A stretch of DNA of 5,380 nt from a candidate division LCP-89 bacterium B3_LCP. GTDB lineage: Bacteria; Electryoneota; B3-LCP. How positions within the stretch are numbered: the first letter of the stretch is position 1; each line of letters begins with the position of its first letter. A model generated the notes under the pieces. That model was given only the letters and a program-made list of their open reading frames with translations. It searched no databases and had not been told where the DNA came from. The translations under genes and the position numbers were made by a program. The stretch is from the NCBI GenBank assembly GCA_005223185.1, contig NJBN01000018.1, positions 1 through 5,380 on the forward strand. Reading direction: 5' to 3'. Shown here piece by piece: positions 861 to 5,380 of the stretch.

Positions 861-911
861 TGTCAGGGCCGACCTGAATATGTCATAAAGCCACCGGTAT
901 GAAGATGCATA
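861..911 (+). repeat. IS left terminal inverted repeat with two internal 20-bp repeats
   Basis: It opens with TGTCAG, then repeat L1 GGCCGACCTGAATATGTCAT (867-886), a 5-base spacer, and repeat L2 CACCGGTATGAAGATGCATA (892-911). The common core is CCGg..TGAa.ATG. Spacing is identical to the right end. By analogy with IS21 these are IstA binding sites. Confidence 0.85.
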
Positions 912-912
912 A

Positions 913-998
913 TTTTCTTCTTTGATTTTTCTTCCAAGTCAGATTTTTTTAATCCATATTCTTCCGTTTTCTTCCCTTAGGCAAAATATTTTCTTCCC
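913..998 (+). repeat. Leader of the IS with five pyrimidine-rich TTCTTC repeats
   Basis: The stretch between the left IS end and the first gene is AT-rich and carries five copies of a (T)TTTCTTCC(C) motif at 913-920, 926-935, 958-965, 967-976 and 989-998, all in the same orientation. The region must hold the promoter of the four-gene operon. The only pair with sensible spacing that I see (TTAGGC at 977-982 and TAAAGA at 1000-1005, 17 bases apart) matches the sigma-70 consensus poorly. The repeats could be regulatory or simply low-complexity sequence. Confidence 0.5.
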
Positions 999-1048
999 AT
1001 AAAGATCGGATTCATCAATAGTTGGCTCCAACTGGAGGTAAACTGTGG

Positions 1049-1597
1049 ATGAAAAAGATAAAGCGAAAAAAGTGCTGTCATTGCAGGTGTCTATTCGTAC
1101 CGGACCCTCGAAATCCGGCCAGACAGAATTATTGCAAAAAGGAACCCTGCAGAAAAACAAGCAAAGCCGCCAGTCAAAGAAAGTGGCTGAGCAAACCGGA
1201 AAACAGAGATTATTTCAAGGGGCCGGAGCATGTTAAGCGGGTTCAGGAATGGAGAAGAGAGAACCCCGGATATTGGAAACGATCAAAGCGGCTGATTGCG
1301 TTACAAGATCCCTTAATCGTCCAAGGTGTTGAAAATACAACGCATAACGATCAAGTTGCCGCATGTGCGTTACAAGATCTCTTAATCGCTCAACCTCCTG
1401 TTATTATAGGGTTAATCTCCAATTTTATCGGATCTGCGTTACAAGATGACATCGCAAACACCCTTCTTCTTATGCAACAATCCGGGCAAGACATTTTATG
1501 TCTTAAACCCCAAAAAGAAGGAGGAAAACATGATTGTCAAATCCCCGATTTTACCCAAACGGGTTCGCAAGGTGCCCAGAAGCTTCAGCTGGATTGA
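1049..1597 (+). CDS. Cys-rich probable zinc-binding protein with three 23-residue repeats, IS accessory gene
   Basis: This 182-residue basic protein has no function known to me. Residues 9-36 hold a Cys cluster, CCHC at 9-12 with C14, C29 and C34, spaced like a zinc ribbon (CxxC, 16 residues, CxxxxC). A highly basic aromatic stretch follows (about 36-84: QRKWLSKPENRDYFKGPEHV, then RRENPGYWKRSK). Both suggest nucleic-acid binding. From about residue 84 there are three tandem 23-residue units each opening with ALQD (ALQDPLIVQ, ALQDLLIAQ, ALQDDIANT). Similar proteins, from memory, lie next to IS21-like transposases in Desulfobacterota and Planctomycetes. I chose ATG 1049 with GGAGG at 1034-1038; a TTG at 1022 in the same frame is possible but would place that site inside the gene. 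The last 22 codons overlap the next gene in another frame. A role in target choice or in regulating istAB is speculation. Confidence 0.72.
   Translation: MKKIKRKKCCHCRCLFVPDPRNPARQNYCKKEPCRKTSKAASQRKWLSKPENRDYFKGPEHVKRVQEWRRENPGYWKRSKRLIALQDPLIVQGVENTTHNDQVAACALQDLLIAQPPVIIGLISNFIGSALQDDIANTLLLMQQSGQDILCLKPQKEGGKHDCQIPDFTQTGSQGAQKLQLD
1298..1454 (+). repeat. Three direct repeats with an exact 69-bp period
   Basis: GCGTTACAAGAT begins at 1298, 1367 and 1436, exactly 69 bases apart each time. Copies one and two share 21 of 22 bases (1298-1319 and 1367-1388, ending CTTAATCG); the third diverges after the first 12. The rest of each 69-bp unit has drifted strongly. Because 69 is 23 codons, the repeats stay in frame and produce the ALQD units of the accessory protein. 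Confidence 0.85.
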
Positions 1598-1892
1598 TCA
1601 CCGGCTGATCCGAGACCGGCATATTGACTTGTGCAGTCATAGCCAGGCCGCTTTGTATCTGTTTTTGGTCTGTGCGGCTGATGAGAAAGGGTTAAGCTAT
1701 TACGGCGATGGGTCTATTATGGCAAAACTGGGTATGGATCCGCACACCCTGGAGGCGGCCAGATCCGGCTTGATCCAAAACAGTCTGATTGCCTGGCAAA
1801 AGCCCATCTATCAGGTTCTCAGCCTCGAACCGCAGGAGAGCCGAACCGGATCAATGATGCGCCTTAAAGACATCCTGGGAGGTGCAAAATGA
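1530..1892 (+). CDS. Small winged-helix-like protein, IS accessory gene
   Basis: This 120-residue protein starts at ATG 1530, preceded by a strong AAGGAGG at 1518-1524 with five bases of spacing. An in-frame ATG at 1446 lacks such a site and would lie deep in the previous gene. After a basic N-terminus (KRVRKVPRSF at 10-19) comes WIDHRLIRDRHID (21-33), then a predicted helical set: SHSQAALYLFLVCAADEKG (36-54), YGDGSIMAKLGM (58-69) and DPHTLEAARSGLIQ (70-83), with a short beta-like wing IAWQKPIYQVLSL (87-99). This pattern resembles winged helix-turn-helix domains of DnaD or replication-protein type, in which SIMAKLGM and DPHTLEAARSGLI would be the two HTH helices. The stop overlaps the istA start (ATGA, 1889-1892), pointing to translational coupling. 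I infer a DNA-binding partner or regulator of transposition; no specific function is known to me. Confidence 0.75.
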   Translation: MIVKSPILPKRVRKVPRSFSWIDHRLIRDRHIDLCSHSQAALYLFLVCAADEKGLSYYGDGSIMAKLGMDPHTLEAARSGLIQNSLIAWQKPIYQVLSLEPQESRTGSMMRLKDILGGAK

Positions 1893-3361
1893 TCGATTAC
1901 GAAACCTATGCGCAAATCAGAAACTGTTTTACCCGAGACGGACTCAACTACAGCCAAATCGCAGATGAACTGAGCCTTGATCATCGAACCGTGGCTAAAT
2001 GGGCCGACGAAAAACGATACCTGCCCAGAAGATCAGCAGCACACAAAAGCAAACTGGACCCTTTTAAAAACGATATTGCGCAGATGCTTGAGAAACATGC
2101 CTTTACGGCAAGGCAGATTTTTCAACGCATACGGGACAACGGGTTTGACGGCGGCATCACCATTGTAACCGATTATGTTCGTAAGATCCGGCCCCCAAAA
2201 ACAACGCCATATTTAAAACTGGTCTTTGCTCCGGGTGAATGTGCCCAGGTGGACTGGGGATCATACGGCAATGTACGCGTGGGATCGACCAGCCGCCGGT
2301 TAAGTTTTTTTGTGATGGTGTTATGCCACAGCCGCATGATGTATGTTGAGTTCACCGTCTCCCAGACCATGGAGCATTTTTTAGGATGTCATCAGAATGC
2401 GTTTCATTTTTTTGGCTCGGTTCCTCAAAAGATCATGGTGGATAATCTCAAATCGGCTGTTTTGAAAAGAACCATCGGCAAAGCGCCGGTGTTTAATCCC
2501 CGGTATATGGATTTTTCAGACCATTACGGATTTGCGATTGCCCCCTGCAATGTGGGCAAAGGCAATGAAAAAGGTGTGGTTGAAAATGCGGTAGGATACG
2601 TCAAAAAGAATCTGTTAAATGGTCTGGACATCTCTGATTTTAAAATCATGAAACCGATAGCGAAAAACTGGATAGATACAATTGCCAATGTCAGGAACCA
2701 TGGTGAAACCGGTAAAAGGCCGGTTGATATGTTTGCCGAAGAGAAACAGAGTCTGCAATCGCTTCCGGCAGAACCGTATGACATTGGTGTGGTTGAACAG
2801 GCCCGGGCATCAAGGCAGTTCAGGGTGACCATTGATACCAACCGTTACAGCGTACCTGCCCAACTGGCCGGTGTCGGACTGACGGTCAAGCGGTATCCGG
2901 ACCGGTTCTGTTTTTATCATGAGAATAAACTGGTTGCCCGGCATGTCAGAAGCTTTGACCGCCGCAGAGACTTTGAACACCCGGATCATCCCAAGATACT
3001 GTTAGCGCAAAGAAAAAAAGCACTGGATCAAAAGATATTCATGCGGTTTTTGGATTTATCCGACAACGCACAGGAGTATTACCGGCAGTTGGAACAGTGC
3101 CGGATGAACCCGTTCCATCATATCCGCCAGATCGTAGCGCTATCGGAAATCTATCCCAAAGAACAGGTTGCACGGGCTATTGAAGATGCGTTTTATTTTA
3201 AAGCATTTTCCTGCGATTATATCGCCAATCTTTTGGAGCAGCGTTCCCATCATGTTAAAGCGCACAGAGCGCTTCACCTGACCCGGAGCAGTGATCTTCT
3301 GGATTTAACCATCAACAAACCGGATCTGTCGATTTACGACATAGGGGGTACAAATGAGTGA
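1889..3361 (+). CDS. istA: IS21-family transposase IstA
   Basis: The 490-residue protein is a DDE/RNase H-fold transposase that cuts and joins the element's DNA. An N-terminal HTH is seen at about 17-41 (GLNYSQIADELSLDHRTVAK, then WADEK), which should help bind the terminal repeats. The catalytic triad is visible: D122 in AQVDWGSYG, D185 in IMVDNLKSAV and E232 in KGVVENAVGYVKK. GNEKGVVE just before and in the E motif is typical of IS21. The C-terminal part (from about 300, FRVTIDTNRYSVPAQLAG) is the beta-barrel domain of Mu/IS21 transposases. Length is at the upper end of the usual 390-510 residues. The start is set by GGGAGG at 1877-1882, six bases upstream. The ATG overlaps the previous stop by four bases, and the stop lies eight bases into istB. 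The gene appears intact. Confidence 0.96.
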   Translation: MIDYETYAQIRNCFTRDGLNYSQIADELSLDHRTVAKWADEKRYLPRRSAAHKSKLDPFKNDIAQMLEKHAFTARQIFQRIRDNGFDGGITIVTDYVRKIRPPKTTPYLKLVFAPGECAQVDWGSYGNVRVGSTSRRLSFFVMVLCHSRMMYVEFTVSQTMEHFLGCHQNAFHFFGSVPQKIMVDNLKSAVLKRTIGKAPVFNPRYMDFSDHYGFAIAPCNVGKGNEKGVVENAVGYVKKNLLNGLDISDFKIMKPIAKNWIDTIANVRNHGETGKRPVDMFAEEKQSLQSLPAEPYDIGVVEQARASRQFRVTIDTNRYSVPAQLAGVGLTVKRYPDRFCFYHENKLVARHVRSFDRRRDFEHPDHPKILLAQRKKALDQKIFMRFLDLSDNAQEYYRQLEQCRMNPFHHIRQIVALSEIYPKEQVARAIEDAFYFKAFSCDYIANLLEQRSHHVKAHRALHLTRSSDLLDLTINKPDLSIYDIGGTNE

Positions 3362-4085
3362 TATCACTGAGCACCTGACATATTTAAAACTTGCCTATAT
3401 CCGTGAAAACTACGAAGCCGTCGGAAAAACAGCAGCTCGTAAACAATGGGATCATATCCAATATTTATCCGAACTGGTTAGACAAGAGTCCAACCTGCGC
3501 AAGGACAGAAGCATCCAGCGCCGGATCCGATTGGCAAAGTTCCCGGTCATCAAAACCCTGGATCAATTTGACTGGCCCTGGCCCAAAAAGATAAACCAGG
3601 CTCAAGTAAAAAATCTGTTTCGCCTCAAGTTCATTGAGGAAAAAAGCAATGTTGTTTTTATCGGTTCGGTTGGCGTTGGAAAGACCCATATCGCTACGGC
3701 GTTGGGATATCAGGCCTGCTTGAAGAACAACACGGTGTTGTTTGCTTCAGCCATTGATGCCGTCAATAATCTGATTGCAGCACAGCATGCAGGGCAGCTT
3801 AAACAGGAATTAAAAAAATACCTCAAGCCCTCATTGCTGGTTTTGGATGAACTCGGATATTTGCCTATTGATAAAAACGGAGCCGATTTACTGTTCCAAA
3901 TCATCAGTGAACGATATGAACGAGGCTCCATAATCATCACCACCAACCGGGTGTTCAAAGACTGGCCGCAGATCTTCAACAATGACAGCACACTGACATC
4001 AGCCTTGCTGGATCGACTGCTGCATCATACGGAAGCCGTTGTTATCGAAGGTAACAGCTACCGGATGAGAAAAATAAAAGAGTGA
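3354..4085 (+). CDS. istB: IS21-family helper ATPase IstB
   Basis: The 243-residue protein is an AAA+ ATPase related to DnaC and DnaA. In IS21 elements it assembles on target DNA and stimulates IstA-mediated insertion. The N-terminal helical region (1-95: HLTYLKLAYIRENYEAVGKT, then FDWPWPKKINQAQV) is typical of IstB. Walker A GSVGVGKTH lies at 104-112, Walker B LLVLDELGYLP at 161-171, sensor-1 IIITTNRVFKDWPQIF at 193-208, and SALLDRLLHHTEAVVIEG at 216-233 carries the arginine-finger region. Length is normal for the family (about 240-260). The start overlaps istA by eight bases and has AGGGGG at 3343-3348, five bases upstream, so translation is probably coupled. It is the last gene of the IS operon and is followed at once by a terminator. 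Confidence 0.96.
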   Translation: MSDITEHLTYLKLAYIRENYEAVGKTAARKQWDHIQYLSELVRQESNLRKDRSIQRRIRLAKFPVIKTLDQFDWPWPKKINQAQVKNLFRLKFIEEKSNVVFIGSVGVGKTHIATALGYQACLKNNTVLFASAIDAVNNLIAAQHAGQLKQELKKYLKPSLLVLDELGYLPIDKNGADLLFQIISERYERGSIIITTNRVFKDWPQIFNNDSTLTSALLDRLLHHTEAVVIEGNSYRMRKIKE

Positions 4086-4136: not shown

Positions 4137-4187
4137 CAAACATTTTCAAACCGGTCGTTTGATGACATTTTCACGCCGGTGCTAACA
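4137..4187 (-). repeat. IS right terminal inverted repeat with two internal 20-bp repeats
   Basis: Read on the minus strand inward from 4187 it starts TGTTAG. Repeat R1 CACCGGCGTGAAAATGTCAT (4181-4162) follows, then a 5-base spacer and repeat R2 GACCGGTTTGAAAATGTTTG (4156-4137). Thirty-seven of the 51 positions match the left end, with the best conservation in TGAA.ATGTCAT and ACCGG. Confidence 0.85.
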
Positions 4188-4260: not shown

Positions 4261-5380
4261 CTAATTCCCGCCAATCCCAGATTGAATAATTCTGCCTGCA
4301 TAATATAAGGGTACAAAGATCATTTTTTGTTCCTCCAACTTTTCAAACTCCCGGGTTGAAAAGACAATCCCTGAAGGGCAATCCGGATAATTTCTCAAAA
4401 TCATATGCATGCTTTTTAGGGAACCGGCTTTGCCACTTTTTACCTCAATTGGATATGGTTTACCGTCAAAGGTAACAAGATAGTCAATTTCTGCACTACT
4501 TCCTTTTTTATCTCTCGCCCAGTAGCAAATTTCTCCATCATTTGCGCAAATTAATTCCTGTCCGACAAATTGTTCCGCTAAAGCGCCTCTGTATGTATTT
4601 GAGAGATCCGATTTTATTAGTTCCTGATAATCCGACATTCCACTCAGATGCTGCCATAACCCGATATCCAAGAGCAGCGTCTTAAATTTTTTTAAAGAAA
4701 TATTTAAATTTAAGGGGGGGGTAATGTGACTTAACGAGGGTATCTTTTTAATTATTTTGGCATTTAATAAGGTTTCAAAAGCCTTCTTAATTGTTGGAGA
4801 AGAGAATGATTCGGAAAGATGCGTATATTTTATCTGATTGCCAATATTCTTTGCCACGTTTTTAAATACGTCATTCAAACAGTGTTTATCAGCATATGGC
4901 GCATATTTTGAGAAATCATCCTGAAATGTAGTGATAAGTTCTTTATGAACATCAAATGCGTCAGAAATACTACCACTTTCAATAAATACCTGTATACTTT
5001 CAGGCATTCCCCCGATAAAAAAATATGTTCTGAGTTCACTGAGCATTGAATCATGTATTTGTTCGGGCAATTTTTCAGGTCTGGAATTTATAATTTCCAA
5101 CGCTGTTTCATTTTCAACAGCCATAAGGTATTCCGCAAATGTCATTGGATACATATTTAAATATTGAACTCTCCCAACTGGAAAGGAAATCTTAGAAAGG
5201 GAAAATTCCAGCAATGATCCTGCAGCGATGACATGAATTTCATTCATTTCTTCATAAAAATATCTTAACGCGGTTATTGCGCGCGGACAACTTTGTATTT
5301 CATCAAAGAAGAGAAGCGTTTCTTCCGGTATAATTTTTGTTTTTTTTATGATTTCAATTGATTGCTTTATAACCATGGGA
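4261..5380 (-). CDS. AAA_14/DUF4143-type ATPase, N-terminus beyond right edge
   Basis: The frame is open through the right edge and stops at TAG (4261-4263). The first ATG at 5376 is probably internal, because the Walker A loop expected about 50 residues earlier is absent. Numbering from that Met, LLFFDEIQ at 21-28 is Walker B, AAGSLLEF at 51-58 is the sensor-1 region, and PVGRVQYLNMYPMTFAEYL at 66-84 is a family hallmark. Residues about 110-255 form the DUF4143 part. The C-terminus carries a PD-(D/E)xK-like pattern, AEIDYLV (D298) and PIEVKSGK (E311, K313). Intact members are roughly 400-450 residues. They are widespread archaeal and bacterial P-loop ATPases of unclear role, often in accessory regions. 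The gene is AT-rich compared with the left half of the window, which suggests a separate origin. An intron remnant ends nine bases after its stop. Confidence 0.88.
   Translation of the reverse strand, partial: PMVIKQSIEIIKKTKIIPEETLLFFDEIQSCPRAITALRYFYEEMNEIHVIAAGSLLEFSLSKISFPVGRVQYLNMYPMTFAEYLMAVENETALEIINSRPEKLPEQIHDSMLSELRTYFFIGGMPESIQVFIESGSISDAFDVHKELITTFQDDFSKYAPYADKHCLNDVFKNVAKNIGNQIKYTHLSESFSSPTIKKAFETLLNAKIIKKIPSLSHITPPLNLNISLKKFKTLLLDIGLWQHLSGMSDYQELIKSDLSNTYRGALAEQFVGQELICANDGEICYWARDKKGSSAEIDYLVTFDGKPYPIEVKSGKAGSLKSMHMILRNYPDCPSGIVFSTREFEKLEEQKMIFVPLYYAGRIIQSGIGGN
4714..4721. repeat. Homopolymeric G8 (C8 on the coding strand) tract inside the ATPase gene
   Basis: Eight consecutive Gs on the plus strand read as Cs in the minus-strand ATPase gene, at the codons for THR-PRO-PRO in HITPPLNLN (about residues 217-225). 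The tract lies in AT-rich surroundings next to several A/T runs. Such tracts slip during replication; gain or loss of one base would truncate the protein before its nuclease-like C-terminus. Confidence 0.6.

Follow-up and report, generated by a model that had tools for sequence, protein, structure and literature searches.

The window, a stretch of 5,380 nucleotides, carries between positions 861 and 4187 what is almost certainly one IS21-family element of 3327 bp, with four intact and overlapping genes (Table 1). The two distal genes were assigned with the NCBIfam models for the IS21 transposase and for IstB, both of which score above their curated cut-offs. The terminal repeats are identical at 36 of 47 positions when the right one is reversed, and the two additional frames that an earlier note on this DNA had placed inside them, ORF1 and ORF2, do lie between these repeats. 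The overlaps reported in that note agree exactly with the gene coordinates (68 bases for ORF1/ORF2, 4 for ORF2/istA, and 8 for istA/istB), and the chain that they form bears out its view that the extra genes belong to the same operon as istAB.

Table 1. Coordinates of the element's features in the window
Feature	Position	Strand	Description
Left terminal inverted repeat	861..907	+	TGTCAGGGCCGACCTGAATATG...ACCGGTATGAAGATG; two sub-repeats as in IS21 L1/L2
TTCTTC array	915..996	+	Five direct repeats; proposed ORF2 binding array (putative binding)
RNA hairpin (predicted)	1011..1053	+	Encloses the ORF1 ribosome-binding site and start codon; putative role
ORF1	1049..1597	+	182 aa; N-terminal Cys4 zinc-binding-like domain, basic helices, LQ(D/E) motifs, helical C-terminus
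ORF2	1530..1892	+	120 aa; winged-helix protein, RepA_N/HTH_36-like (predicted)
istA	1889..3361	+	DDE transposase; NF033546, 281 bits (cut-off 160); PF00665 and PF22483
istB	3354..4085	+	AAA+ helper ATPase; NF038214, 275 bits (cut-off 200)
Right terminal inverted repeat	4141..4187	-	Reversed: TGTTAGCACCGGCGTGAAAATG...ACCGGTTTGAAAATG

Published members of the IS21 family are described as having two open reading frames (PMC10122671). The element described here is not limited to istA and istB, and differs from those members by two additional conserved genes, a leader array of TTCTTC repeats and a length of 3.3 kb. With IS21 and IS5376 it has in common the IstA DDE transposase, the IstB AAA+ helper, the TG...CA ends, the two sub-repeats per end, and the short target duplications (5 bp in the Caballeronia copies described below); since the catalytic genes and the ends fit, it is filed as an IS21 variant. 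A literature search, with ISfinder/TnPedia and most subscription journals outside its scope, found neither the ORF1/ORF2 pair, nor the array, nor a four-gene IS21. The element is present as a single copy in the host genome, and its flanks (..CCATC / CTCGG..) show no visible target duplication. Its left end is adjoined by an apparent truncated fragment of a tripartite-tricarboxylate-type binding protein (545-859), and an AAA_14/DUF4143 ATPase gene lies on the minus strand (4261-5376) immediately beyond its right end.

Conservation and joint movement of the four genes

A scan of the genome collection with an ORF1 alignment gave 70 loci, and in 44 of them ORF1, ORF2, and istA were found in the same order by tblastn. 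Another five contain ORF1 and ORF2 followed by a contig end or a decayed element, five are cut by the contig end within what appears to be a single multi-copy element (BRH_c16a), five have ORF1 ahead of a serine recombinase, and 11 are fragments or ambiguous; ORF1 remnants stand alone in some genomes. The loci span Desulfobacterota, Gamma- and Betaproteobacteria, Magnetococcales, Verrucomicrobia, Lentisphaerae, Planctomycetota, Zixibacteria, and Syntrophomonadaceae. Where the locus is intact, there is almost always an overlap between ORF1 and ORF2, usually of 29-107 bases, and one of 4 or 8 bases between ORF2 and istA. The reverse search took IstA alone as the query and covered 395 Desulfobacterota genomes as well as 31 source genomes or records; it found ORF1 and ORF2 upstream of every copy of this IstA clade with enough upstream sequence, the exceptions (L108 and L116) being copies whose upstream sequence is cut. 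When ORF2 alone was searched for in the same 395 genomes, 26 places were found: 20 directly before an IS21 istA (one of them decayed), four before tyrosine recombinases, one beside an IS110 transposase, and one decayed. ORF2 is rare in Pseudomonadota (3/398 genomes). The earlier note had taken the two genes to be conserved accessory genes, and chance passengers if their homologues lay mostly away from istAB or varied freely; the association with istA in the ORF1 and ORF2 searches, together with an order and an overlap kept across phyla, came out against passengers.

The median dN/dS outside the overlaps is 0.26 for ORF1, 0.30 for ORF2, and 0.13 for istA, with values of 0.22, 0.21, and 0.10, respectively, between the window and L012. 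The distance matrices of ORF1, ORF2, and IstB correlate with that of IstA at 0.76, 0.48, and 0.56, compared with 0.40, 0.17, and 0.30 in the best of 500 permutations. Movement of the element can be followed in Caballeronia, in which three copies have identical ends (TGTCATCGGCG...GCCGCTGACA; TGTCA...TGACA), differing flanks, and 5-bp target duplications (CCACC, CCCTC, and CTTTG), from which it follows that the four genes move together. The three insertion sites have no obvious common motif in this small sample. In a fourth Caballeronia copy, an IS66-like transposase gene (named by eye) is inserted in ORF1. Regarding the host, no second copy or relative was found in its own class (ORF1 and ORF2) or phylum (ORF2), ORF2 being absent from 38 other genomes of that phylum, and the nearest relative found is in a Desulfobacterales MAG (IstA 84%, ORF1 69%, and ORF2 75% identical). 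This distribution suggests that the element arrived in the host horizontally.

The encoded proteins and the leader of the operon

The Cys cluster of ORF1 (C9-C12-C29-C34) is well conserved: in 35 aligned sequences C9, C29, and C34 never vary and C12 hardly does. In the predicted structure, a long helix accompanies the N-terminal Cys4 unit and the C-terminus is helical; the block of residues 1-70 has a pLDDT of 84-97. A fold search with this model gave no match among the PDB entries listed, no firm Pfam match was obtained, and sequence searches of NCBIfam, PHROGs, and PDB returned nothing usable. Of the zinc-ribbon-like Cys cluster and repeats described in the earlier note, the conserved Cys4 and the recurring ALQD motifs, which are kept in relatives, hold; no matching zinc-type fold was among the PDB matches listed. 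Within ORF1 of the window, near-identical DNA repeats 69 bp apart (1297-1447) encode ALQD motifs, and their identity at the DNA level may reflect a recent local event.

ORF2 had been thought to resemble a winged helix, and the predicted model agrees, with a core pLDDT above 90. Its best fold matches in the PDB are RepA_N plasmid replication initiators (4pql, 4pt7, and 5kbj; Z 8.2-8.5; rmsd 2.8 over 82 residues), a likeness by predicted fold alone (Foldseek E 0.007) with many winged helices close behind (Z 7-8). The Pfam family HTH_36 is matched by 9 of 39 aligned ORF2 members (best E 4e-9), ORF2 of the window itself having no Pfam match at E 0.1; sequence searches against NCBIfam, PHROGs, and PDB gave nothing usable. 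The N-terminal domain of RepA_N initiators binds repeated Rep boxes and forms tetramers, and the pPR9 initiator has an HTH_36-type domain in place of the RepA_N one (PMC5703833). What ORF2 has in common with these initiators (pSK41 and pPR9) would be the winged-helix fold of their N-terminal domain; in contrast to them, ORF2 is a single short domain carried by a transposon, has neither a linker nor a C-terminal primase-binding domain, and shows no sequence match in the PDB.

Between the left terminal repeat and ORF1, direct repeats, usually of the form T(T/C)TTCTTC(C/G), are present in every leader counted; in the window, TTCTTC copies begin at 915, 929, 959, 969, and 991. Forty-two leaders together contain 172 copies and a single reverse word; dinucleotide shuffles predict 14.9 copies (maximum 24 in 100). 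Most leaders have three to seven copies and two leaders have one. When all hexamers were counted across 41 leaders, TTCTTC came out on top (169 copies, 14.2 expected, all 41 leaders positive), well above the words of the terminal repeats (TGTCAG and CTGAAA), which are also enriched. The array is missing from the right ends (two TTCTTC copies in 38 elements), its spacing is irregular, and helical phasing was tested for and not found. TTCTTC is kept even in GC-rich leaders (as TTCTTCG), beyond dinucleotide composition, and is enriched in an independent set of distant ORF1-ORF2-istA elements with IstA about 34-45% identical (22 copies against 2.3 expected, maximum 8). Elements with ORF2 and a trio of recombinases give a mixed picture, with four copies within 330 bp in L177, none in L178, and a leader cut by the contig end in L179. 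On the other hand, loci without ORF2 (ORF1 with a serine recombinase, an ORF1-like gene with a ParB-like gene and istA, or plain istA) have one TTCTTC in 17 leaders, as expected by chance. Presence in elements with ORF2 and chance level without it indicate that the array goes with ORF2, and not with ORF1 or the type of recombinase; TTCTTC as a site for ORF1 was set aside because ORF1-only serine-recombinase loci do not have the array. Another IS21 element (L165) combines istA, istB, and an ORF2 homologue with a Cys-rich gene other than ORF1; no clear TTCTTC array is seen there. The array, its tie to ORF2, and the predicted RepA_N-like fold are new relative to the earlier note.

Around the ORF1 start, a stretch of 51 bases is predicted to fold more stably than shuffled sequences (mean z -1.42 in 41 elements; -4.3 in the window), compared with mean z values of -0.46, -0.27, and +0.34 at the starts of ORF2, istA, and istB, and -0.01 further upstream in the leader. 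A stem of at least 7 pairs ending near the ATG, with arm sequences that differ, is found in 15 of 41 elements (4.2 expected); only about half of the elements show a clear hairpin. In IS10 and IS50, such structures can block the translation of transcripts entering from outside.

Relatives beside unrelated recombinases

RIT elements have been described as consisting of three recombinase genes (PMC3414803), tyrosine recombinases that stand in place of the IstA/IstB of the window element, and in some of them the overlapping recombinase genes are immediately preceded by a homologue of ORF2. Before such trios stand ORF2 relatives that share 56-63% identity with ORF2 proteins borne by IS21 elements. 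In four loci of this type (L176, L177, L178, and L179), three recombinase genes are present where the contig is long enough, and the Cys-rich gene further upstream differs in each, being ORF1-like in L179 only. The ORF2 of L179 is 63% identical to that of a distant IS21 element (L151), compared with 42% between the window and L151. The ORF1 borne by RIT elements shares 48% identity with that of IS21 elements in which a ParB-like gene replaces ORF2. This arrangement, an ORF1-like zinc gene and a ParB-like gene before istA, is seen in a separate IS21 lineage (L166, L168, and L169, about 160-1600), which has neither ORF2 nor a TTCTTC array.

Another example is provided by large serine recombinases, in which an ORF1 homologue with the same Cys4 domain overlaps or directly precedes the recombinase gene; unlike the window element, these loci have neither ORF2 nor the TTCTTC array. 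They were observed mostly in Verrucomicrobia (L010, L072, L073, L076, L077, and L080), and the ORF1 of L010 is 42% identical to that of the window. On the IstA tree, elements with ORF1 and ORF2 fall at three or more places, separated by plain or ParB-type elements. Considering these scattered places and the identities across recombinase types, the cassette has probably been exchanged, or gained and lost, repeatedly.

Possible roles of the two genes and the array

In the reading that we lean towards, the left end of this IS21 subfamily carries a portable control cassette made up of ORF1 and ORF2, with ORF2 acting on the array. ORF2, through its RepA_N-like winged helix, would bind the TTCTTC repeats of the leader, and this binding would control, in either direction, the transcription of the coupled ORF1-ORF2-istA-istB operon and perhaps also mark the left end of the element. 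ORF1 might act alongside as a Cys4 zinc-type nucleic-acid binder, the gene overlaps would couple the translation of all four genes, and the hairpin at the start of ORF1 may prevent the translation of transcripts that read into the element from outside. The earlier note had likened the two genes to extra DNA-binding subunits for target choice or control. Control is the part retained; with ORF2 relatives before tyrosine-recombinase trios and ORF1 relatives before serine recombinases, the two proteins are not subunits specific to IS21, and this distribution speaks against an IS21-specific target selector. Control is favoured because target choice should depend on the recombinase, and the cassette is common to unrelated recombinases, a shared use that is compatible with a second role at the left end. 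Against a control cassette count the trio leader without an array (L178), the ORF2 homologue of L165 without an obvious one, the likeness to RepA_N by predicted fold alone, the irregular spacing of the repeats, which would fit an RNA-level signal as well, and the presence of a clear hairpin in only part of the elements.

A less probable explanation, to which we still give appreciable weight, is that ORF1 and ORF2 are working parts of transposition, comparable to the extra subunits of Mu- or Tn7-like elements, either because ORF2 on the left-end array helps to assemble or orient the IstA synaptic complex, or because the pair steers IstB/IstA to targets. The position of the array next to the left terminal repeat, and at that end only, would fit such a role, as would the co-divergence of both proteins with IstA, about as strong as that of IstB, and the fact that no clade IstA copy with complete upstream DNA is without them. 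However, the proteins also serve tyrosine-recombinase trios and, in the case of ORF1, serine recombinases, whose chemistry and targets differ; sister IstA lineages do without ORF1 and ORF2 or have a ParB-like gene instead; and the Caballeronia insertion sites lack an obvious motif.

The array might alternatively work at the RNA level, its pyrimidine-rich, G-poor leader being a Rho-dependent terminator or a protein-bound attenuator that limits incoming transcription, without ORF2 binding it as DNA. The orientation of the repeats on one strand, their irregular spacing without helical phase, and the hairpin just downstream are in accordance with this proposal, which we nevertheless consider improbable in view of a precise hexamer that persists in GC-rich leaders and whose presence tracks ORF2, not host or recombinase. 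Still more doubtful is a plasmid-like iteron control, in which ORF2 would either sense the copy number of the element by pairing arrays of different copies and then shut down transposition, or recruit replication proteins to the element. The predicted RepA_N-like fold, the relation of HTH_36 to initiators (PMC5703833), and an array of direct repeats near the element's own genes recall such systems, but classical iterons differ from these short repeats with their irregular spacing, and a protein of 120 aa is too small for a primase- or helicase-interacting domain. Finally, chance passengers or decaying cargo, of which the lone ORF1 remnants might be a sign, are ruled out for practical purposes by the conserved order across phyla, the purifying selection, the co-divergence with IstA, and the joint transposition.

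Returning to the control cassette, it predicts that ORF2 binds TTCTTC arrays. A broader version of it, to which we give not quite even chances, is that the zinc protein ORF1 and the RepA_N-like ORF2 with its TTCTTC array have been swapped among chemically unrelated recombinases of mobile elements (IS21 DDE transposases, tyrosine-recombinase trios, and, for ORF1, large serine recombinases), providing them with a common control of expression or copy number derived from DNA recognition of the plasmid-initiator type. IS21 serves as a structural model of transposition under AAA+ control and has been described as a two-gene system. A four-gene branch that is widespread and has an array of its own at the left end would show how regulation works in small transposons; the sharing of proteins with tyrosine- and serine-recombinase elements suggests that this regulation evolves as a recombinase-independent module. 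As a separate observation, at L145 / L180 homologues of ORF1 and ORF2 are followed by an IS110-family transposase, which could reflect either yet another association of the two genes or the insertion of an IS110 into what is left of an IS21 element.
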